In this document: positions 1-20,728 of the stretch, piece after piece
How positions within the stretch are numbered: the stretch's first letter is position 1
How the letters are laid out: each line of letters begins with the position of its first letter
Virus record (IMG/VR): IMGVR_UViG_3300046804_002588
Span: 1-20,957 of that record
Source: a virus
Length of the DNA stretch: 20,957 bases
Strand: one strand, 5' to 3'
Made by a program: the position numbers and the translations under genes
Notes under the pieces: model-generated
What the model was told of the DNA's origin: nothing
What the model saw: only the letters and a program-made list of their open reading frames with translations
The model's database searches: none

Positions 1-367
1 GTAGTCTATCTTTCAACAGATCTAGAGCTGCTTTTTGCCGTTGATATTCCAATCCTGACAAGCTTGCTTGAGCTTCTAAGTTTCTAGATTGATTTCTTAA
101 AGTAGTTTCCTGTGCTCTTAATGTCTTTAGAAGTTCTTCAGCCTGTTTTTTAGTGAGGTCATAAGTTCCTGCTTGCTTTAATCCTTTTTCTACTTTATCA
201 AAAGCTTTAGCAACCTCTTTAGCACTTCTAAGTATATCCTGATCAAAAGACTCTCCTGCTTTCTTAGCTGCTTTTTCTATTGCCTTTACCGTTTCAAGTA
301 AAGCCTGGGCTGCTGCCCTGCCTTTGTCAAAGCTCTCAAAATCTATATCAACGCCAGGTCTTGCCAT
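1..367 (-). CDS. Probable tape measure protein, N-terminal part (runs off the window)
   Basis: The first 122 residues of a longer protein are visible. They begin MARPGVDIDFESFDKG at ATG 365-367 and stay open to the window edge. The sequence is almost entirely charged/Ala-rich helix: Lys/Glu/Ala runs through residues 20-70, then Glu/Leu/Gln-rich segments typical of coiled coils. There are no cysteines and no signal peptide. It directly follows the gp26-like gene and its overlapping ORF, where long-tailed phages normally place the tape measure gene, whose product sets tail length and is packed inside the tube. A TATTTATA element lies 8 nt upstream of the start. The call rests on position and helical composition, not on a domain match; another coiled-coil tail protein is possible. 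Confidence 0.6.
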   Translation of the reverse strand, partial: MARPGVDIDFESFDKGRAAAQALLETVKAIEKAAKKAGESFDQDILRSAKEVAKAFDKVEKGLKQAGTYDLTKKQAEELLKTLRAQETTLRNQSRNLEAQASLSGLEYQRQKAALDLLKDRL

Positions 368-391: not shown

Positions 392-703
392 TTACTTTTT
401 AGGTTTAGGGACTACGTAATCAGGTACTGAGATTTTAGGTGAATGTTGTTTTAAAGTCTGAATACTGGTTTCTACAGTATCTTTTTCTTTACTCTCTTTC
501 AATTTTACGTAATGATCTAAGACTACGTTGTACGTATATCTTCTTAACCATACTGGCATATTGTATACTGTATTCCAATCATAACCTCCTTGTCCGTAGA
601 AAGCTATTTCATGAAGGTCTTGAAAGAGTTTAGCCCTATAGTTTGAGCTCAGGGTAAAAAAAGTTAATCCCGATTGGGAGATCAGCGACCTCCTCCTCGC
701 CAC
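392..703 (-). CDS. gp51-like / tail-assembly chaperone second ORF, probably expressed by frameshift
   Basis: The frame overlaps the last 68 nt of the gp26-like gene and is +1 relative to it. The only initiation-type codon near its 5' end is GTG at 701-703, just after a stop in the same frame and without a ribosome-binding sequence. The first 20 or so residues (ARRRSLISQSG...) simply shadow the gp26 reading. The protein-like part begins about RAKLFQDLHEIAFYG and includes NMPVWLRRYTYN, a pattern I associate with small gp51-like or tail-assembly chaperone proteins. No in-frame ATG occurs before that segment's NMPVW. I therefore infer that it is made as a C-terminal extension of the gp26-like protein. 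Its C-terminus is Lys/Pro-rich (VPKPKK). The next gene is the probable tape measure. The family name is tentative. Confidence 0.6.
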   Translation of the reverse strand: MARRRSLISQSGLTFFTLSSNYRAKLFQDLHEIAFYGQGGYDWNTVYNMPVWLRRYTYNVVLDHYVKLKESKEKDTVETSIQTLKQHSPKISVPDYVVPKPKK

Positions 704-1382
704 TTTCTAAAGTGAAGGTATAACGGGTATCTACATCCGGAGTTACTGCCGTGTAGTATTCTCTAAGAGCTCTTGCATCTCTTGATAAAAGGTAATTATC
801 AACAAATTCTCTAACGTCTTTTTCTTCGTAAGATCCGTTTATTGATGTAATTATATGTTTCAACCTTACTGTAGTAGAAGATACGTTATCTTTAGAAAGT
901 TTTTTTAATCCTTTCATTTCGTTTTCAATCTTCTCTTCATCATGCCCTGTTAAAAGTTTTAACGTAAGTTGATTACCTGAGAATGGTAGTTTAAAACTAA
1001 ATTCGTTATCTTTCGCTTTTTCGAAGTCTGGATGTAAAGGTTTACTTTCAAAAGTACTTAGATCTATCTTATGAGCAACTCCTCTATACTCTACTTCGTA
1101 TTCACTTCCGTAGGCTAAAATCCTTGCAGCCATCATAATAGCATTTCTATCTCCTACTAACAAATCTTTATACTCTACTTCAGATACGATCAAAGCTTTC
1201 AATACCTTCTCTATAGCGACTCCTTGTCTAATAAAGTTAGTATTTGTGAGAATATCTTCTTCTTTAGCTGTCATATACTTCATCTCTATAACTCCTTTAG
1301 AGAGAGGTGAGGTTTTAGGGTATAGAAGTCCTTTTGATGGTAATTCGACTGTCTCTGTCGGAAAACTAAACTTATTGTCCAT
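636..1382 (-). CDS. 26: T4 gp26-like baseplate/hub assembly protein (tail-assembly chaperone candidate)
   Basis: The 248-aa product opens MDNKFSFPTETVELPSKG, and the LPSKGLLYP motif near residues 14-22 is the hallmark of the T4 gp26-like family. A soluble alpha/beta body follows, with no membrane segment. In T4, gp26 is a hub-assembly factor needed for baseplate completion. Here the gene is the first of a new transcript: a terminator and a TATTTATA element lie immediately upstream, and the leader ACAATAAAAGATT is A-rich. It ends at TAG 636-638 inside an overlapping +1-frame ORF and precedes the probable tape measure gene. That arrangement mimics lambda G/GT/H, so a tape-measure chaperone role is a reasonable inference. 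Confidence 0.8.
   Translation of the reverse strand: MDNKFSFPTETVELPSKGLLYPKTSPLSKGVIEMKYMTAKEEDILTNTNFIRQGVAIEKVLKALIVSEVEYKDLLVGDRNAIMMAARILAYGSEYEVEYRGVAHKIDLSTFESKPLHPDFEKAKDNEFSFKLPFSGNQLTLKLLTGHDEEKIENEMKGLKKLSKDNVSSTTVRLKHIITSINGSYEEKDVREFVDNYLLSRDARALREYYTAVTPDVDTRYTFTLESGEEEVADLPIGINFFYPELKL
654..665 (-). promoter_or_regulatory. Candidate programmed frameshift site (seven-T run)
   Basis: In the gp26 frame the coding strand reads AAC TTT TTT TAC. A Phe-tRNA sliding +1 on the T run (or -2) would continue as ACC CTG AGC into the overlapping ORF. A shift is allowed only between about 709, where the second frame has a TAG, and the gp26 stop at 636-638. This run is the only obvious slippery stretch in that interval. 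A purine block AGGAGGAGG lies about 25 nt upstream, further than known SD-like stimulators usually sit. Confidence 0.5.
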
Positions 1383-1478: not shown

Positions 1479-1967
1479 TTAGTAGTTCAATACACAGTAG
1501 TCCATTCCAAGTGTCACTGTAAGGTTAACTGCAGCTGCATCCGTATCCCAGTTATATTCACCAAAGTTAGCTGTTTTAATAAATGCTCCTTCTAGAATCC
1601 ATTGAGAAACGATATCACCTACAGGACCTAGTACGTTAACGGTACAACGCTTTTTATAGAAGTCAGAGTATCCATCACGTCCTGTTACTGATTCATGGTG
1701 AAGACGTACCCATTCCATTACTGCTTGAGCTCCTGATGGTGTGATTGGATCAAACAGAGTCAACGTAACATCACTCCAGTTAGCTCTTCCTTTAATCTTA
1801 CGGTATACGTTAATATGATTTAGCTTGATTTCACCTTGTTCTACAGTAATAGCAGACATCCCTTTAATCATGAAAGCAGGAATACCGTCTACTGTGAAAT
1901 AGAATCTGTTTGCTACCTTTGGTTCAAAAGGTGTAAACAGCATCTGATTTGAATCTAATATTGCCAT
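1479..1967 (-). CDS. 19: Tail tube protein (T4 gp19-like)
   Basis: The 162-aa protein has the size of T4 gp19 (163 aa) and its style of sequence. The N-terminus resembles a gp19 tube monomer (PKVANRFYFTVDGIPAFMIKG), the middle has INVYRKIKGRANWSDVTLTLFDP, and the end is beta-rich with NLTVTLGMDYC. Gp19 polymerises in hexameric rings around the tape measure to form the inner tube through which DNA passes. The gene sits directly downstream of the sheath gene in the standard 18-19 order and is followed by a strong terminator. The ATG at 1967 is preceded by an A/T-rich leader with a TATTTATA element 16 nt upstream, so the tube may be transcribed separately from the sheath as well as together with it. 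Confidence 0.93.
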   Translation of the reverse strand: MAILDSNQMLFTPFEPKVANRFYFTVDGIPAFMIKGMSAITVEQGEIKLNHINVYRKIKGRANWSDVTLTLFDPITPSGAQAVMEWVRLHHESVTGRDGYSDFYKKRCTVNVLGPVGDIVSQWILEGAFIKTANFGEYNWDTDAAAVNLTVTLGMDYCVLNY

Positions 1968-2005: not shown

Positions 2006-4132
2006 TTATGCTGGGAATGTTGCTCCGGTGGGTAGTACGTTGAAATCTAGTAGAATGAATTCGGCAGTTTTAGTTGGCTGTAAGTAGATTTGACCTACAA
2101 GTTGATTTCTGTCGATTACATCTGCTGTATTATTAGTATCATCCATTACTACTTTGAAAGCATATAAGCCTTGTCTCTGCTGTACTGATTGTAGGTAAGG
2201 ATTAACCTGTGCAAGGAAAGCATCTCTAGTTGCCATTGTATTCTGTTCGAATACCAAGTTGTTAGCAATTTGAGAGATGTAGCTCTTAACTGCAATTAAC
2301 AATCTACGTACGTTTACTCGATCAAGTGCTGATGCTTGTTTCTGTAATGTTTTCTGTCCGTATACTACTACTCCTGTTCCAGGGAATGTAGCGATTGGGT
2401 TAACATTACCGACGTATAGAGTATCTCTGTCAGATTGAGAAAGTTTTCTTTCTGCTTGAATTGCTGCTGCTAGACCTCCTCTATTAATACCTGCAGGTGC
2501 AAACCATGGTTCAGATACGTTATCGGTGAAGGCATATACAGAAGGAATCAAAGTAGAAGCTGGTACCCATACAATCTTACCTGCATCTGGGTCTAATGTT
2601 TGGATCCAAGGCCAGTAAGTTGCTGCGTAGCTATTATTTAGAGTTGAAGCATTAGCTACTACAGTTCCTATATTTGCTCCGTAGTTAGCAACGTCTACAA
2701 CTGCTAAAGCATCTCCTCTATTTTGTGCTGTAGAGATTAGCTGATTCACTGCGCTAACGCTTGTAGAACCTTGTCCGTAGTTTACTCCTGGTATAGTGAT
2801 TACATTGTATTTGTAATCATCTGTGTTAGATAGTAAGTTAATAGATTGAGTGTATCTACCTGCTGTCAAACCTTGAATATTACCATCAGATACATTTTGG
2901 TACATGTTAGGTGTCGAGGTATATAGTCGACCTGTTGCACCTTCAAAGCATCCGGATGCTGCAAGAGGAATAGAACTGCTGTAAGAGTTACCTGCAGCGT
3001 TGTTATTTACTCCTCCGTTTGAGTTTAAGTAAGCTGGAGTTGCGTAGTTTACTCCGCTAACTCTTACGTATCTACTTTTATTTGTATAAGTCCCTACTGT
3101 CTGTACGTAAGTATTACCTGTTGTACTATCAGTTAAGACGTTAAATGTTTGATTACCGATTACAGATTCAATGTAATTAGGAGAATATGGATCTAAAGAT
3201 AAATTTGTCCATGTTTCTAATACTGTTGGATTTGAAGTAGTATCATTACCTTGTCTGATTAGTAGAGAGAATGTACCAGAAGCTGTGTCTGGAGCTACAA
3301 CCTGCCATCTTATATTGTTTGCAGATCCGGATACTAATAATCCATTAACTCCGTTAGATCCGCTATTATTCATTATATCTCCTTCACCTAGAGTTTCTAA
3401 AGTAAATGCTACCGCAGTTACTGGATCTGTTCCTCCTGTTAAAGTTCCAAGAGAAGTATATGTTCCAATAGGTACTACTGCATTAGAAAAATCAACTCCA
3501 TTGTAGGATGTTCCTGCTGCTCCTGCAGTTATTTTCATTGTTAATCCCGGTATATTCGCTGAACCAGAAAAAATACTAAGTATTGAAGTATTGATCTTAG
3601 TAACTAAGTTAGTGATTGAATCGTCTAAGTTACTTCCTGATTGAAAATAAAACTGAGGGGATGCATCAGGAGGTAAAAATCCTGCTGGCATGGATGTAAA
3701 CTTATAATCTACACCTCCGTACGGTAATCTATAAGTATATCCTGCGGAAAATTCGTATAATGTGTAGTCTAAATCCCCAGTTGTTGCTTTTGTACCTGCT
3801 ACTGCAATTTCATTATTACTTATTTGAGTGCTGGTTGCAGGAGTAAAATCTTCTGGTGTGATTCTAGTTACAAGTAAGGTATCTCCTCCGTTATTAAAGT
3901 AATTATATGCTGCTATTGAAGTGAAGTAAGAATAAGAAGCTCCACCGCTTGTAAATGTTCCTCCGAATTTGCTTAAATAATCTGAGTAAGTGGTTACAAG
4001 TGTTGGGATACCGACTCTACCTTTTACTGTTGGTCCAATAATAGCTGCACCTGCTGTGATAGGTCCTTGGGTTATAAACGATTGATCGTTTTCTCTAGCT
4101 AAGACTCCAGGAGATAATAAAGTTTCTGCCAT
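2006..4132 (-). CDS. 18: Contractile tail sheath protein (T4 gp18-like)
   Basis: The 708-aa product is somewhat longer than T4 gp18 (659 aa). The N-terminus MAETLLSPGVLARENDQSF and the GPITAGAAIIGPTVKGRVG stretch match the start of myovirus sheath proteins. The C-terminal domain (about residues 480-708) has the conserved sheath core, including WPWIQTLDPDAGK, VRRLLIAVKSYI and the closing IYLQPTKTAEFILLDF. The sheath polymerises around the tube and contracts to drive injection. Residues about 157-238 (3419-3664) form an inserted beta-rich module that resembles part of the neighbouring 583-aa lectin-like protein. The middle region up to residue 450 is Gly/Ser/Asn-rich and probably surface-exposed. 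The start has an A-rich leader and a TATTTATA element 15 nt upstream. Confidence 0.95.
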   Translation of the reverse strand: MAETLLSPGVLARENDQSFITQGPITAGAAIIGPTVKGRVGIPTLVTTYSDYLSKFGGTFTSGGASYSYFTSIAAYNYFNNGGDTLLVTRITPEDFTPATSTQISNNEIAVAGTKATTGDLDYTLYEFSAGYTYRLPYGGVDYKFTSMPAGFLPPDASPQFYFQSGSNLDDSITNLVTKINTSILSIFSGSANIPGLTMKITAGAAGTSYNGVDFSNAVVPIGTYTSLGTLTGGTDPVTAVAFTLETLGEGDIMNNSGSNGVNGLLVSGSANNIRWQVVAPDTASGTFSLLIRQGNDTTSNPTVLETWTNLSLDPYSPNYIESVIGNQTFNVLTDSTTGNTYVQTVGTYTNKSRYVRVSGVNYATPAYLNSNGGVNNNAAGNSYSSSIPLAASGCFEGATGRLYTSTPNMYQNVSDGNIQGLTAGRYTQSINLLSNTDDYKYNVITIPGVNYGQGSTSVSAVNQLISTAQNRGDALAVVDVANYGANIGTVVANASTLNNSYAATYWPWIQTLDPDAGKIVWVPASTLIPSVYAFTDNVSEPWFAPAGINRGGLAAAIQAERKLSQSDRDTLYVGNVNPIATFPGTGVVVYGQKTLQKQASALDRVNVRRLLIAVKSYISQIANNLVFEQNTMATRDAFLAQVNPYLQSVQQRQGLYAFKVVMDDTNNTADVIDRNQLVGQIYLQPTKTAEFILLDFNVLPTGATFPA

Positions 4133-11770: not shown

Positions 11771-13492
11771 TTAATTCAATGAGCTAGATCTCCACTGTCC
11801 TCCTAACCATACAAACATTGCAAATCCGTTTGAACCACTTCCGAATAGGAACTGTCCTTCTGATGCTTGGAATGATGGAGTAGGGGTTGTGAAAGATCCT
11901 GTAGGAGTTATTAAAGTTCCTGATACAAAGTTAAATGTTGATAGTGATCCGGACACTGTTAATGATCCGGTCATACTGCTATTACCTAACGTATTTGATG
12001 TACCTACTACGTTAAGTCCAGATTGTGATACTATCAATGATCCTGTTACATTGGTATTACCTAAAGATCCAGAATCTAAGTTAAGTGCAGAAAGTCTCAC
12101 ATACCCTGCTCCCATATCTCCTCCTCCGTATGGCTGGTATGCAGCTAAGAAGAAGTTAGGTGATGAAGATAAGTCTCCTACATAAGCAGTATTTGTTAAT
12201 ACTGTGGCATTTAGATTTAATGCTCCTCTTAATGTTAAGTTATCAGAATGTAATGTTACTGCAGATCCTGAAGCTATTAGTGAACCGGATATTGTTTGAT
12301 TTCCTATAAAGGTGTTGGATCCAGTAGTTACTAAGGTACTGTAGTTTGTAGTCTGTGTTACGTCTACCTGTATACTTCCGCTAACTAGGGAAGGTTTTCC
12401 TGAAACATTTGCAAAAGCTACAGAATTTGCAGATAGTGCACTACTTGCCCACGAAGATGTGCCGTTAAGACTTCCTGTAAAGCCGTTAAATGAGCTTACG
12501 GAGCCAGTGAACATATGTCCTGCAGTTCCTGCATAGTATCTTATTCCGGCATTTGTTACATTTTCTGTTACAAGATTAGCATATAACCCTTTAGATTGGC
12601 TTATTACTAGATCTGCATTCACAGTCTGTTGTGCTGTGAAGGTATTAGATCCTGTAGAAGCTAAAGTATAACGTACTGATTCAAATATTGGATCTGTTTC
12701 TGATCCTCCAATATGTGGAAATGGTGAAGTTCCAACCTGTCCTGAAGCTGAATCGTATGACATCATCCTGAGGGTTGTTCCTCCTAGTAGCGGTAATGCA
12801 TCTAAGTTAGCACTAATATACTCAGACCCTGTTATTGCTATGTTAGTTCCTTCTAGGTAAACGGTATTACCGTGTATAGTTAGTATATCGGATCCAGGGT
12901 TAATTACACTTCCTCCGTCTGTGGATAAAGTTAATCCATCTCCTCTTACCGAAATAGGCATACTGTAGTTCTCTCCTCCTAAGAACATGTTATTATCAGA
13001 ATGTCTATATTCCAAAAGGATGCCGTTAGCTCTATCAGTATACTGAGTTGCAGCATTGATAACAAATACCGGCCCTAATAATCCATCAGGGTCTCCGTCT
13101 TCGTATGTATGCCCTACCCATGCATTATAGGCTTGATCTGATCCATGATCTCCTCTCCATTGAGTAAGGAAATGTAGTCCACTTCCGGAAGCTGGTGTTG
13201 TATTTATATTACTTCCTAATCCAAATACGTTTATATTTCCTCCAAGATTACCTATACCTGTCGATCCGCTACTAAAAAACGTATCACTTGTTACTTCAGT
13301 TAGAAAAGTTTGAGTTGGGTACCCGCCTATATTTAATGCACTTTCTTCATCTACTGTAACAGTCCCTGATAGAGTGCTTGCACTATCGCTAGCTATAGCA
13401 CCTTTTAGGTAAAGTGATCCAGTGATCGTACTATTACCTGCAAGGATTGTTAAGGTATCTCTTGTAAAATTTAAAATTGGATATTGATTCAT
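11771..13492 (-). CDS. Gly-Ser-rich tail fibre protein
   Basis: This 573-aa fibre has repeated ITGSL, VSGSL and SGSLIASGS turns, with modules of the type 'NTFTAQQTVNADLVISQS' and 'NTFIGNQTISGSLIASGS' in the middle and C-terminal third. The motif GGSETDPIFESV also occurs, as ESDPVFNSF, in the upstream 1264-aa fibre, so the two genes share modules. The closing GFAMFVWLGGQWRSSSLN looks like a compact tip domain. Residues about 95-215 are aromatic/Asp/Gly-rich (THYEDGDPD-type loops) and may be an exposed head domain. No signal peptide or chaperone motif is seen. Transcription continues from the 1264-aa gene with a 25-nt gap and no terminator. It probably binds the host surface; the receptor is unknown. 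Confidence 0.65.
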   Translation of the reverse strand: MNQYPILNFTRDTLTILAGNSTITGSLYLKGAIASDSASTLSGTVTVDEESALNIGGYPTQTFLTEVTSDTFFSSGSTGIGNLGGNINVFGLGSNINTTPASGSGLHFLTQWRGDHGSDQAYNAWVGHTYEDGDPDGLLGPVFVINAATQYTDRANGILLEYRHSDNNMFLGGENYSMPISVRGDGLTLSTDGGSVINPGSDILTIHGNTVYLEGTNIAITGSEYISANLDALPLLGGTTLRMMSYDSASGQVGTSPFPHIGGSETDPIFESVRYTLASTGSNTFTAQQTVNADLVISQSKGLYANLVTENVTNAGIRYYAGTAGHMFTGSVSSFNGFTGSLNGTSSWASSALSANSVAFANVSGKPSLVSGSIQVDVTQTTNYSTLVTTGSNTFIGNQTISGSLIASGSAVTLHSDNLTLRGALNLNATVLTNTAYVGDLSSSPNFFLAAYQPYGGGDMGAGYVRLSALNLDSGSLGNTNVTGSLIVSQSGLNVVGTSNTLGNSSMTGSLTVSGSLSTFNFVSGTLITPTGSFTTPTPSFQASEGQFLFGSGSNGFAMFVWLGGQWRSSSLN

Positions 13493-13517: not shown

Positions 13518-16500
13518 TTAAACTCCATATCTAGCAGATTCACAAACCCATGCGTTACCTGATCCTGACATGTTTAAGTAGATGTATTTATATACTCCAT
13601 TTGGTATATTTTCTAACAGGTAACCGAATTGAAATACACTCGTAGTTGGATCTTCAATCAATGCATTTGCACAAGAGAAATTAGTTGTGCCTATGCCCTG
13701 TGGTGAACTAGCATTTTGAACTACAACTGTAAATGTAAGTCCATAGTCTGCAGATTGAGATCCTGGGAAGTGTATGGTTCTTCCAGCTAGTGAATATGAA
13801 GATTTGGCATGTACTACGTTAGATCCTGATGTAACAATAAAGCCGGTGCTAGTTTCTGTAACTTTCTTACGTACCATTCCTGCTTCGTATGATCCGGAGA
13901 GGAATGTTATCCTACTAGCATCGTTACCTGTAATCCCCGGTGCTACAGCTAGTTGTCCGAATATCTGATGGTACCCATTAGGTGAAGATGAAGAAATGTA
14001 TATACCTATGCCTCCCTGTACATTTAAAGGCCTTGCTAAGGTATTAGCCTGGTATATGTATAGTGCAGGTGCATCTATGTTAGAACTTGAAATAAATGTA
14101 CTGTTAATTATAGTATTTATTCCTGTTACTGTATTATCTTTAGCTACCGTGACGGTATTGCCGTACCCTCCTGCACTTGAAGATACATAAAGTGATCCTG
14201 TGATCTGTACCGTAGAAAATCCTCCAGAAGTAAATAATGTTTTATTAACTGAATCAAAAATCCAGTACCCGTCTTTATTTGCATTAATTGAAGAAGTTAA
14301 CATTCTTTCAAATCTACCTGTAGTAGGATTTATTGTAAGTACTACACTTTCAGATGCAAACGGTATAGATCCGGTAGCAACAAATAAACTGCCAGTTATT
14401 ACCTGTGTTCCTGTAAATGCGTTTGAAGCGGTAGTTGCAAAAGATCCGGTTTTGTTGTTTATAGATTGAGTATAATTATTGAGACTTGTAATAGTTGCGT
14501 TTACGCTTGAAGTGTAGTTTAAAATACTTGCGCTAAAGTTTAGAATGCTGCTGCTAAAGTTTAGAATGCTAGCACTAAAATTATTAATACTTGAAGTATA
14601 AGCATTAAAAGAAGATGTTGTAACAAATGAACTAGTAGTATTATTAATAGATTGAGTGTAGTTATTTAGTCCTGCTATTGTAGTATTGACGCTTGAAGTG
14701 AAGCTTAACATACTACTGCTAAAGTTCAAAATACTTGCACTAAAATTATTAATACTAGAAGTATAAGCATTGAAAGAAGATGTTGTAACAAAGGAGCCTG
14801 TTCTATTATTAATAGATTGAGTGTAATTGTTCAGGCCGGCTATAGTAGTGTTTACACTAGAAGTATAATTTAAAATACTTGCACTAAAGTTTAGAATGCT
14901 AGCACTGAAACTATTAATACTAGAAGTATAGTTATTAAATGAAGATGTAGTTACGAATGATCCTGTTAATCTATTTGGTAAGAATGAGCTTGAGAAACTA
15001 TTAAATACCGGATCTGATTCTATGAACTGTGCTCTTTGTAACTGTCCTGTTGAAGTATTTATAACTATGAGTTGTGGATTATTATTTCCAGAGCTTATTG
15101 TTGTACTAGGTACTCCTGAAAGTTGTAATATAGTAGATCCGGATATAGTCACGTTTCCTACTACCCTATGTGAAGAACCGCTAGCTGTTAAAGATCCGGA
15201 TATTGATACTGCTCCGGTAGAGGAGTTGTAGTTAAATCTTGTAGCACCTCCAAATGTTCCGTTATCGTTAAATTGTATGTTTTGATTAACACCTCCGGGG
15301 GATGTTGATCCACCACCGCCTCCTACCGCAATTGAAGATGTGTTCATCAACTGTATTTGACCGGTAGTAGGGTTATAAGTCAATACTGCACTTTGAGATT
15401 CAAATGGTAAATATCCTTGACCTGGCTGTACGAATAGGGATCCAGAGAATCTTACCTGTCCTGTATGTCCTTCTATAAGATTATGTCTATCTACTTCTGA
15501 TGTTCCATCTCCTAAAATCCACAGTGCTTGAGATCCTGACAGGTTGTATTTGCCTTGTGCATGTTGACCCTCTCCTGATGCTATTGTAAATAGTCCTTCT
15601 GCATGTGAAGCAAACCCGTTAGCTCTTGAACCGGAACCTTCAGCGTGAGAGTAGCTTCCATTAGTCATCGTGCTGTAGCCTTCAGTATGTGAAAATCCTC
15701 CGTTAGCTACCGTGCTGTAGCCTTCAGCATGGCTGTATTGTCCGTAAGCTCTAGTGTTGTATCCCTCTGCATGCGAATAAGGTCCGTTAGCTTGAGACTC
15801 GTTACCTTGTGCGTGGGAATAAGCGCCTTCTGCTAAGGTATTATACCCTTCAGCATGTGCTCCAGTTCCAGTAGCTTCTGTATACGCTCCATGTATAAAG
15901 GAGTAATCTCCTTTAGCTGCATTATAATTTGGAAATTGTGTATTGTTGGACTGTCCGAAAGCTACAGCGTAGAGTCCTGATGCTAATACATCAGTTCCTA
16001 CTTCTAATCTACCTGTCAATTTAACCTTTGGATTCACAGTTCCTGCAGTCGTCGTGTCATTATACCTGTATTGAAATGCGTATGCCAGGTTAGAAGCTCC
16101 TTGGAAAGTATTATTTTGATTAAACTGGATATCATAATTTGTACCTCCGGGAAGTGCTGATCCTCCTCCTCCTCCTCCGCCTAGTGCTGCAAGACCTACT
16201 TGAAATACTCCTGTTCCGGTATTACCAGATCCCGACTGTACTGCTAGGGCATAATCTGGTCTGTTTAATATAGGAAAAGTACTTTGACTTGCAAAGAATA
16301 GGACCTGGTCTAAAAAAAACTGGGATTGTGGAATATTATCTCTTGCTCCTGCAATACGTATTTGTTTTCTAGCAGCTAGAAGTATTTGAGAATCATTTGC
16401 ACTGGTTGCTGTATTGGGAGTATAATCGCTTAACTGAATTCCGGATACTATTGTAATATCTTGAGCTGCTTGTATAGTAGTCTGCCCTTGACCTATAGGT

Positions 16501-17312
16501 TCAAGAGTTCCTAAAATATAAATACCTCTTTTAGTGCTAAATTGCATTAATGCTATTTGATTTGTAAAATTAGTAGGAATATTCCTATTTGATAGTACTT
16601 GTAGTTGAAAAGACTTACCGTAATAATTGTTCGGATCATTGTTCCAATCGTCCATTACAAATCTTACACCTCTCAATGACATATCTCTCAGTACGGTTGT
16701 CGGTGTTCTATCATATCCGTAGAGATTTATCCCAGGAGCAGTAACGTTATTAAATCCAGATTCCCATGGATTAGATGCTCCTGCCTCGTAAGAGGTCATC
16801 CCCATACCTGAGCTGAAGATGGTTAGATTATTTCGGATATTGGTAGCGTAATTCCAATCCCTATCTATTATGATCGATCCTAATGCTGTAGCAGGATTCG
16901 CTGTAAGATTTCCTCCTATTACTAGTCCATTATTACCCGGTATATGTGTGATACCTCTTAACTGGTTAAAAGTAGATCCATCATTCTCAACTAAGAAAGA
17001 TCCAGATATAATTAAAGAAGGGTTAGGTGCAAAACTGGCATTATTACCTACAGGCCAAGTCCCTAGTCCGCTTGTTTCTCCTATTACTACTAATGAAGCA
17101 GAAGCGTAGTCGTAAACTGCTCTTAACTGTGGTGTTGTAGATAACGTAGCTGGATTAAAAGTTCGTATAATTCCTTGTGTTAGGATGTTTCTTTGTCCTA
17201 TTGGTATCAAAGACATAGATCCGGAGACACTTGCCGCTCCTTCTATTACGTTTTCAACTCCGGAAAGGAATGTTGTTTGTCGGAATAATCCACTGTATAT
17301 TGCACCGCTCAT
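13518..17312 (-). CDS. Giant fibre/adhesin with YadA-like head repeats and heptad stalk
   Basis: The 1264-aa protein is the largest in the window. Residues 1-375 are a beta-rich N-terminal region with Gly/Asn turns. A seven-Gly linker (about 376-383) and an IQFN..NTFQGA segment follow. Residues 468-593 are nine consecutive 14-residue repeats of the form 'YSHAEGYxTxAxG' (GYNTLAEGAYSHAQG, GYNTRAYGQYSHAEG), the repeat of YadA-type trimeric adhesin heads. A second Gly linker and a second IQFN..GTFGGA segment precede residues 784-955, a triple tandem repeat of 55-62 residues built of ILNFSAS-type heptads that would make a trimeric coiled-coil stalk. The C-terminus (about 1120-1264) is a compact beta tip ending in CESARYGV. 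A terminator and TATTTATA-like element lie upstream. It is probably a trimeric host-binding fibre. Confidence 0.75.
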   Translation of the reverse strand: MSGAIYSGLFRQTTFLSGVENVIEGAASVSGSMSLIPIGQRNILTQGIIRTFNPATLSTTPQLRAVYDYASASLVVIGETSGLGTWPVGNNASFAPNPSLIISGSFLVENDGSTFNQLRGITHIPGNNGLVIGGNLTANPATALGSIIIDRDWNYATNIRNNLTIFSSGMGMTSYEAGASNPWESGFNNVTAPGINLYGYDRTPTTVLRDMSLRGVRFVMDDWNNDPNNYYGKSFQLQVLSNRNIPTNFTNQIALMQFSTKRGIYILGTLEPIGQGQTTIQAAQDITIVSGIQLSDYTPNTATSANDSQILLAARKQIRIAGARDNIPQSQFFLDQVLFFASQSTFPILNRPDYALAVQSGSGNTGTGVFQVGLAALGGGGGGGSALPGGTNYDIQFNQNNTFQGASNLAYAFQYRYNDTTTAGTVNPKVKLTGRLEVGTDVLASGLYAVAFGQSNNTQFPNYNAAKGDYSFIHGAYTEATGTGAHAEGYNTLAEGAYSHAQGNESQANGPYSHAEGYNTRAYGQYSHAEGYSTVANGGFSHTEGYSTMTNGSYSHAEGSGSRANGFASHAEGLFTIASGEGQHAQGKYNLSGSQALWILGDGTSEVDRHNLIEGHTGQVRFSGSLFVQPGQGYLPFESQSAVLTYNPTTGQIQLMNTSSIAVGGGGGSTSPGGVNQNIQFNDNGTFGGATRFNYNSSTGAVSISGSLTASGSSHRVVGNVTISGSTILQLSGVPSTTISSGNNNPQLIVINTSTGQLQRAQFIESDPVFNSFSSSFLPNRLTGSFVTTSSFNNYTSSINSFSASILNFSASILNYTSSVNTTIAGLNNYTQSINNRTGSFVTTSSFNAYTSSINNFSASILNFSSSMLSFTSSVNTTIAGLNNYTQSINNTTSSFVTTSSFNAYTSSINNFSASILNFSSSILNFSASILNYTSSVNATITSLNNYTQSINNKTGSFATTASNAFTGTQVITGSLFVATGSIPFASESVVLTINPTTGRFERMLTSSINANKDGYWIFDSVNKTLFTSGGFSTVQITGSLYVSSSAGGYGNTVTVAKDNTVTGINTIINSTFISSSNIDAPALYIYQANTLARPLNVQGGIGIYISSSSPNGYHQIFGQLAVAPGITGNDASRITFLSGSYEAGMVRKKVTETSTGFIVTSGSNVVHAKSSYSLAGRTIHFPGSQSADYGLTFTVVVQNASSPQGIGTTNFSCANALIEDPTTSVFQFGYLLENIPNGVYKYIYLNMSGSGNAWVCESARYGV
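14448..14963 (-). repeat. Three tandem stalk repeats (165, 165 and 186 nt)
   Basis: Three in-frame copies start at 14963, 14798 and 14633, each beginning (G/S)SFVTTSSFN and ending NNYTQSINN. The third is 21 nt longer because it carries one extra heptad (NFSASIL). A partial fourth start (GSFATTASN) is at 14447. Inside each copy the ILNFSAS heptad recurs. The repeats encode residues 784-955 of the large fibre. Confidence 0.85.
15534..15911 (-). repeat. Nine 42-nt repeats encoding the YadA-like head
   Basis: This block is exactly 378 nt, nine units of 14 codons with the consensus (G/x)YSHAEGYxTxAxG. The copies are diverged at DNA level, so they are older than the stalk repeats. They encode residues 468-593 of the large fibre. 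Confidence 0.8.
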
Positions 17313-19021: not shown

Positions 19022-20728
19022 TTAGATAGTGTTCAAGCCAGATACATAGATCTTAGCGTAGAATTCAGGTCTCAACATCTTCTTAGCGTAGCGAGTCAAT
19101 AGACCTTTACGTGGAGTGAAGGTGTTTGGATCGTACACTAGAGGAGTCATGATTAATGGAATGTAAGGAGCAAATACAGCACCAGTTTCCAAGAATTGAG
19201 AACCACGGAAACCTAACAAGATGGTGTTTTCATTCATGTAAGGATTCTTGTACACTTTGTAACGACCGTTCATCTGACCTACTTTCTGTACTCCGAAAGC
19301 ATAGTTCATTTTTTCAGTGTTACCATTCACATCAGCAGCAAATCCAGGAATTGATTCCAAGATAGTAGATACTGTAGGAGATACTACCATGAAGTTAGCA
19401 CCACCGCGAAGAGTCAACTGGTGAATCTTGTTAGACAACTTCTGGATCTTAGTACCAAGAGTTTGGAACCATTGACCTTGAGAGTTGTAGAATCCAAGGC
19501 TTTGAGTGAAGTCAGAGCCGTTAGAGTTCAAAGTAGTGTTGTTGATAGCAGACCAGTACTCAGTACCTGCAGCAGCATCCAAAATCAACATGTCAAGGAT
19601 TTCCAAATCAATCTCAAGAGAAACGTACTCAGACATCATTGAAGTCAATTCAGCTTCAGCATCGATGTTCTGGTAAGCGTTCAAATCTTGAGCGAATTCA
19701 GGAGTCCATACAGCTTTCAATTTCTTGGTCTTAGCTACGATAGCTTGAGATTGCATCTGTACGTTGATCTCCGGAATACCGATGGTAGCAGTACCGCCGA
19801 TACCGGTAGCAGTTGTAGCACTTGGAGTAGAGTAGGTTGGAAGTGATTGTGTACCTGGATCTTCGAAGTCACCACGTGCATTATCTGCAGTCTTCTTAGA
19901 GTAGGTCAATACCACATTTGCAGAAGAAGCAGCAATGTTAGCTTGAGAAGCAGTAACGTAGAAGTTCAAAGTAGCATTACCATCGTAAGAGAAGAATGCG
20001 TTCAAGTTAGTAGCAGCAGTTACGGATCCGGATACAAGAGTGAAAGAACGGATAGCTTCTAGATCTGCTACACCAGCAAAACCTGTGAAAGAAGCAGTAG
20101 TAAATGCAAATTTCTTAATCTCATTTCTAGCAGCAGAAGCAGAAAGAGAAGAATCGTAGTTTACATCTGACCAAGAAGCAGAAGTAATTGTTAATGCTGT
20201 AGCAGAAGTAGCTAGTGCGAAAGTAGCAGATTGTGAAAATACGTTAGTAGAGTAAGAGAAACGACCAGCTCCATACAAACCGCCATTTGTAGCGTTAGTA
20301 GAGAAAGGATATTGACCGTTAGTACCGCCGCCGTACATTGAGTTACCTGCAGTGAAAGGAGATTTAGTAGTTCCGTATTGGAAATCCAAGAAGAATACTA
20401 GTCCAGATGGTAAGTTCATAGGTTGTACAGAAACGAACTCTTTAGAAGCGATCTGTCCGAACACCTTACGTACCAATGGAAGTGCAATACCTGCCCACTG
20501 CTCACCAGTACCTGTGGTGAAAGAAGCACCAGTACCGGTATTAGAAGATTCAACAACAAGTTGCTTGGCTTGGTTCTCAAGCATCATAGCCATGTTGTTA
20601 CGATTGATTTCGCCATCTAGGCCTTCAAGTAAGCCAGTTTTAGCCCACTTGGTTGCTAATCTAGCTGCATCTGATTGCAAGCTTTTCCAAGGATTAGCTG
20701 ATTCAAGTAATGATTGAATTGTGCTCAT
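19022..20728 (-). CDS. 23: Major capsid protein (T4 gp23-like)
   Basis: The 568-aa product is longer than T4 gp23 (521 aa). The N-terminus up to about residue 60 is the expected cleaved propeptide: helical, with RNNMAMMLENQAKQLVVES matching the 'LLENQ' region before the T4 cleavage site. Glu60-Ser61 is the likely cut by a gp21-type protease. FVSVQPMNLPSGLVFFLDFQYG (about 97-118) matches the 'VQPM..P.G.vF' signature of gp23, and the C-terminal half (ARGDFEDP, AVWTPEFAQDLNAY, LGFRGSQFLETGAVFAPYIP) continues in the family pattern. Residues about 155-300 form an Ala/Ser/Thr-rich insertion. Codons look optimised (many aac, ttc, aag), as expected for high expression. The leader is A-rich with no Shine-Dalgarno. 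Confidence 0.95.
   Translation of the reverse strand: MSTIQSLLESANPWKSLQSDAARLATKWAKTGLLEGLDGEINRNNMAMMLENQAKQLVVESSNTGTGASFTTGTGEQWAGIALPLVRKVFGQIASKEFVSVQPMNLPSGLVFFLDFQYGTTKSPFTAGNSMYGGGTNGQYPFSTNATNGGLYGAGRFSYSTNVFSQSATFALATSATALTITSASWSDVNYDSSLSASAARNEIKKFAFTTASFTGFAGVADLEAIRSFTLVSGSVTAATNLNAFFSYDGNATLNFYVTASQANIAASSANVVLTYSKKTADNARGDFEDPGTQSLPTYSTPSATTATGIGGTATIGIPEINVQMQSQAIVAKTKKLKAVWTPEFAQDLNAYQNIDAEAELTSMMSEYVSLEIDLEILDMLILDAAAGTEYWSAINNTTLNSNGSDFTQSLGFYNSQGQWFQTLGTKIQKLSNKIHQLTLRGGANFMVVSPTVSTILESIPGFAADVNGNTEKMNYAFGVQKVGQMNGRYKVYKNPYMNENTILLGFRGSQFLETGAVFAPYIPLIMTPLVYDPNTFTPRKGLLTRYAKKMLRPEFYAKIYVSGLNTI

Follow-up and report, generated by a model that had tools for sequence, protein, structure and literature searches.

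The virus record IMGVR_UViG_3300046804_002588 of IMG/VR is a contig of 20,957 bases (the window, meaning here this whole stretch of DNA), and its minus strand carries a gene resembling T4 gene 26 and a second open reading frame (ORF), ORF2, that overlaps the end of it. We conclude, with a probability of roughly 90%, that this locus specifies two tail assembly chaperones of the lambda G/GT type, the longer of which would be produced by a +1 frameshift at the codons TTT TTT. A sequence-only reading of the same DNA had proposed a programmed shift, its +1 direction, its site and the lambda G/GT/H layout, and all four survived the comparison with relatives described below. The overlap of 68 nucleotides (nt) in the +1 frame was confirmed from the coordinates of the two ORFs. 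The parts of the locus, all on the minus strand, are as follows.

636-1382, minus strand: gp26-like gene (short product, TAC-N or 'G'), 248 amino acids, ATG start, TAG stop at 638-636.
657-662, minus strand: shift-site codons TTT TTT; the equivalent codons are (U/C)UU-U in 145/146 +1 junctions, with fixed codon usage.
659-657, minus strand: proposed P-site codon, re-pairing to 658-656; the next +1 codon is ACC at 655-653.
651-656, minus strand: 3' part of the conserved cassette, TAC CCT in the window and TGG CCT in most relatives.
392-655, minus strand: +1-frame extension (T domain, like the gp51 C-terminus), 87 codons and a stop, predicted to be read after the shift.
392-703, minus strand: ORF2 as first called, 103 amino acids, GTG at 703.
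690-698, minus strand: GAG GAG GAG, within a block of synonymous-site constraint about 30 nt upstream of the shift site.

The minus-strand text across the site is AAC (665-663) TTT (662-660) TTT (659-657) TAC (656-654) CCT (653-651), and the codons of the gp26 frame around it are ATT AAC TTT TTT TAC CCT GAG CTC AAA CTA TAG. The run of seven Ts that had been pointed out in the overlap is present at 662-656.

Strong comparative evidence argues for a +1 shift at (U/C)UU-U. From three IMG/VR scans and the phage relatives, 151 distinct junctions were collected, and the T domain was found in the +1 frame in 146 of them. The shift point carries [TTT/TTC/CTT][TTT/CTT]T in 145 of these 146 +1 junctions; the site was TTT TTT TGG CCT in 121, TTC TTT TGG CCT in nine, TTT CTT TGG CCT in five, TTT TTT TTC CCT in four, TTT TTT TAC CCT, the type of the window, in three, and CTT TTT TGG CCT in three. 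A fourth IMG/VR scan added 54 junctions, 52 of which are in the +1 frame. Eight loci binned with bacterial or archaeal genomes (Flavobacteriales, Winogradskyella, WOR-3 and others) all read +1, at identities down to 35% (some at 35-39%), and seven of them have TTT TTT TGG CCT and one TTT TTT TTC CCT. Recurrence of the same +1 overlap at the same codons in these three collections is far from chance. TGG CCT was present in 192 of 201 site-carrying loci, a count that is descriptive, as are the other motif counts from this set, because the loci were selected for carrying the site. Carriers of the +1 cassette number in the hundreds among relatives from sea and fresh water. When scans were seeded with SP-15 and RM378, only SP-15 and RM378 themselves were recovered. 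The exact site TTT TTT TGG CCT also occurs in a gp26 relative on a 2.8 Mb contig of a chromosome-scale metagenome assembly (L304; CP070664.1, candidate division WOR-3), which may represent a T4-like provirus or a joined viral contig.

An alignment of relatives had been suggested as a check for conservation of the overlap and of the T run, and the two fared differently: the overlap is kept as counted above, whereas the T run is broken in some lineages. As judged from these alignments, the conserved element is (U/C)UU-U followed by GG-CCU, and not the seven-T run itself.

Synonymous constraint was analyzed in a set of 63 non-redundant loci, at 155 gp26 codons that are conserved. The six strongest biases of the 155 were found at GAC245, GAG231, CCT244, GGG238, AAC240 and GAG230, none of which is more than about 15 codons away from the site. 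TTT241 and TTT242 were 100% fixed among Phe codons, and the CCT of the cassette was present in 63/63 relatives. At the two constrained Glu positions upstream, GAG was used in 36/41 and 45/46 relatives, though GAA is the common Glu codon. The constraint on GAG GAG and GGG is limited to a close group, and YTT TGG CCT is common to nearly all. GAGGAG was considered as a Shine-Dalgarno stimulator and rejected, since at about 30 nt upstream it is too far away for the usual role and the block is no constant feature of the Mel-JY01 group.

The protein read in the +1 frame is conserved from its first residue (GLTPEYR..F.QIHEIVFHGxGGYDWxTVYNMPIWLR). For codons 7-32, which precede the first common ATG, the ratio of nonsynonymous to synonymous substitution rates was 0.13 in the +1 frame versus 1.3 and 1.8 in the other two, the pairs compared not being independent. 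This bears on the alternative that ORF2 is a separate gene, translated either from a start codon of its own (GTG, TTG or a rare one) or by ribosomes that re-initiate once past the gp26 stop, so that a free T protein and no fusion would be made; we regard this as improbable. The GTG at 703 would suit it, and is, as the sequence-only reading stated, the sole NTG of ORF2 upstream of the site in the window; it does not directly follow the in-frame stop, as had been said, but is separated from it by one AAA codon. Among relatives, however, the upstream starts are not conserved in position, and in 57 of 145 junctions the +1 ORF contains no ATG, GTG or TTG upstream of the site. Furthermore, an NTG start is missing from both the upstream part and the first 20 codons in 64 of 201 loci, nine of which lack even a rare start codon. 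A CUG start was rejected because its third base varies among relatives: the second +1 codon is CTG in 161/201 loci and CTA, CTT or CTC in 38. The ATG that is common at +100 nt encodes the M of YNMP within the T domain; many relatives have Leu there, and the strong purifying selection lies before this ATG. A separate gene would also leave the fixed TTT TTT codons unexplained. Upstream of the site, the +1 peptides show no conservation, and 35/201 loci have the +1 frame closed no more than 12 nt away from it; this part of ORF2 is probably not translated in the +1 frame. Comparison of relatives thus finds a conserved site near the end of the short ORF and an extension without a conserved start of its own. 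A clean separate start for the second ORF, which had been named as the observation that would speak against a shift, was found only in two small lineages, and these can be read as natural controls. L098 and L103 encode the T domain as an independent ORF that begins at an ATG of its own, and their sites are TTC TTG TAT CCT and TTC CTT TGG CCA; at 64-69% identity, the closest relatives of L103 still have the +1 overlap, with TTT CTT TGG CCT. In L239/L240, a GIY-YIG-like ORF lies at the junction, the site is TTC TTC TGG, and the T domain again has its own ATG. The coincidence of an own T start with a decayed site suggests that the site is lost or altered once the shift is not needed. As a separate observation, the homing-endonuclease-like ORF of L239/L240 (MVGIYKIISPSNKIYIGQS..., from 2697) sits exactly at the gp26/T junction, and the downstream T domain retains an in-frame remnant of the gp26 end (NVPLGLNLF).

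The frame could also be changed before translation, if RNA polymerase slipped on the seven-T run and produced a mixed mRNA. Seven Ts are indeed present in the window and in most relatives, but in independent lineages only three or four consecutive Ts are left (TTTCTTTGG in 10 loci and TTCTTTTGG in 10 loci) and the +1 frame is nevertheless retained, which speaks against slippage of the polymerase, and the GG-CCT bases 3' of the run are conserved as well; we therefore consider this explanation very unlikely. Equally small is the chance we give to a ribosomal -2 frameshift, which would reach the same frame. Phage Mu employs a -2 shift (PMC5009743), and the seven Ts of the window would permit -2 re-pairing, but TTT-CTT-TGG and TTC-TTT-TGG in relatives give TTC and TCT at the -2 positions, poor partners for the P-site tRNA. 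By contrast, re-pairing in the +1 direction is good in all variants. A +1 ribosomal shift remains the explanation that we prefer.

The gp26-like ORF matched PF12322 (T4_baseplate, E=2.5e-6) and phrog_150 (baseplate hub, E=1.1e-10), so the short form belongs with T4 gp26 and T4 gp51, both of which match these two families over most of their length. A PF12322 search of the window's own record gave no match; hmmscan of the translated gene passes the cut-off. T4 gp51 has an additional C-terminal part beyond this match and, on the profile evidence, is a second gp26-like protein plus a C-terminal domain. ORF2 alone gave only weak and no significant matches to Pfam and PHROGs. When a profile of ORF2 relatives was aligned by hhalign with a profile combining the gp51 C-terminus with T domains from P-SSM2, HTVC008M, Cr30, phiM12 and phiW-14, the probability was 96.3 (E=2e-9). 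The description of ORF2 as gp51-like is therefore right for the C-terminal domain only, and ORF2 as a full gp51 was rejected. In AlphaFold2 models, in which the G and T parts were folded separately, the G part had a predicted local distance difference test score (pLDDT) of 91.6 and its top matches in a structure search were predicted T4-like baseplate hub proteins. The T part was predicted to be helical (pLDDT 79.9), and its structure search gave no significant match.

Several observations weigh against the proposed shift or the chaperone assignment. Because the relatives are not independent, fewer separate events took place than the counts suggest. In the window, UAC stands in place of UGG, in addition to the possible GTG start. 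No conserved RNA structure was found by RNAalifold in any window tested around the site, and no well-spaced Shine-Dalgarno-like stimulator was found near it. Among solved structures, the highest-probability match of the G model was the HK97 tail assembly chaperone (2ob9), a weak match that is not significant (probability 0.57, E=0.59).

The neighboring and other recognizable genes of the window are as follows.

2-367, minus strand: presumed tape measure gene, 5' end, running off the window; assigned by position and coiled-coil-like sequence only.
1479-1967, minus strand: tail tube gene, gp19-like, upstream neighbor; phrog_4542 tail tube, E=7.6e-22.
2006-4132: sheath gene.
19022-20728: gp23-like capsid gene.

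The tail tube gene also matched PF06841 with E=1.9e-5, a match that falls short of the family's curated cut-off. With this gene upstream and the presumed tape measure start at 367, the order is tube, G, T, tape measure, and the two overlapping ORFs lie between tail tube and tape measure genes, the latter named in the window by its position. This position is supported by Flavobacterium phage immuto, where the gene in the equivalent place is annotated as tail tape measure protein, and the gene order in immuto and Mel-JY01 is the same as in the window. The tail tube, sheath and gp23-like capsid genes place the fragment among T4-like myoviruses. The chaperone role of the locus is suggested by homology and this gene order. 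Elsewhere in the window, long proteins encoded at 11771-13492 and 13518-17312 on the minus strand are abundant in TGS/SGS-type repeats and are probably tail fibre or virion surface proteins.

In the mechanism that we propose, the majority of ribosomes would terminate at 636 and release the short gp26-like protein. A minority would pause with tRNA-Phe on UUU (659-657), slip forward by one base onto the overlapping UUU and resume at ACC in the +1 frame, producing a fusion of 329 residues, the added domain of which is similar to the C-terminal part of T4 gp51. If the parallel with lambda holds, the tape measure protein would be coated by the abundant short copies, and recruitment of the tail tube subunit would fall to the few long ones.

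Frameshifted tail chaperones have long been known, with shifts of -1, -2 or +1 depending on the phage (PMC5009743). The novelty here, as read from the alignments, lies in a +1 version whose shift cassette is very conserved; a literature search with little reach into subscription journals found no prior report of this +1 class. We propose further, though at slightly less than even odds, that YUU-UGG-CCU is a self-contained +1 recoding signal without a stop codon, an RNA stem or a close Shine-Dalgarno sequence, preserved nearly unchanged in sequence throughout a very large group of T4-like viruses, among them viruses of Bacteroidota, and that one homologous chaperone family has seen the shift change direction, between -1 and +1, at identical Phe-Phe codons and give way to two genes in T4. 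The relatives indicate that the T4 protein family is expressed via three routes, a +1 shift, a -1 shift and two genes, so that ideas on how the T4 arrangement evolved can be put to the test. With its near-invariance, the UUU-UGG-CCU block also offers a clean natural subject for studies of +1 shifting. In immuto (L001:3722-3964) and Mel-JY01 (L002:3746-3982), the T domain is cut short in the deposited annotations or entered there as a hypothetical protein of its own, and the fusion is unannotated; such tail genes are thus probably often misannotated.

In comparison with lambda G/GT, the locus has the same short ORF and overlapping extension between tail tube and tape measure genes, and, as we propose for the window, a long form that arises when ribosomes shift frame at a programmed site close to the short ORF's end (PMC5009743); it differs in that the lambda shift is -1 and the family here is PF12322, not lambda G. 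T4 is listed as an exception to the rule that long-tailed phages have frameshifted tail chaperones (PMC5009743). That T4 gp26 and gp51 are tail assembly chaperones was proposed in 2022 by Vladimirov, Gautam and Davidson, as cited in PMC10274946 and PMC12846349. T4 shares with the window the short-form family, a gp51 C-terminal domain that aligns with the T domain, and a junction at the same place. However, its short and long forms come from two full genes on opposite strands without a frameshift, so the G/GT layout that the sequence-only reading had extended to T4-like gp26 and gp51 holds at this locus and not in T4. Two genes are found as well in CP220, and separate short and long chaperone genes are described for some T4-like phages in PMC10274946. 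The window being a 21 kb fragment, two full-length PF12322 genes were sought in relatives, and only one gp26-like gene was found in each of immuto, Mel-JY01, LR756508 and RM378.

Poly-T -1 sites are described for other T4-like phages in PMC12846349. P-SSM2, HTVC008M, Cr30, phiM12 and phiW-14 have the same two domains, which overlap at the homologous Phe-Phe codons with a T-rich site, but their T domain is in the -1 frame, with sites like AGT TTT TTY or GAT TTT TTY and without the UGG-CCU cassette. The window falls outside this class, its T domain being in the +1 frame and its -1 frame around the gp26 stop being open for 14 codons only. The jumbo Stenotrophomonas phage RAS14 (L190:2426-3486) has a likely -1 site, AGT TTT TTT ATC, where a T-like domain in the -1 frame overlaps the gp26-like gene; the genes are annotated only as hypothetical proteins. 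A downstream ORF in the +1 frame that resembles the T domain when judged by eye is present in RM378, SP-15, LIS04 and GXN1; those of RM378 and GXN1 did not match the T-domain profile.

Known +1-prone sites in bacteria are UUU_Ynn and, in release factor 2, CUU_U with a minority of UUU_U (PMC5009743). The release factor 2 site (CUU_UGA_C) shares with ours the YUU_U tetranucleotide class and the +1 direction; it differs in having a stop codon in the A site, where UGG (or UAC/UUC) stands here, in the close Shine-Dalgarno sequence that is missing here, and in serving autoregulation, whereas a fixed protein ratio is the presumed purpose here. A +1 shift, very likely in that case, also occurs in a myovirus tail assembly gene pair of Halorubrum virus HSTV-2 (PMC5009743), which differs from the present virus group in being an archaeal virus.
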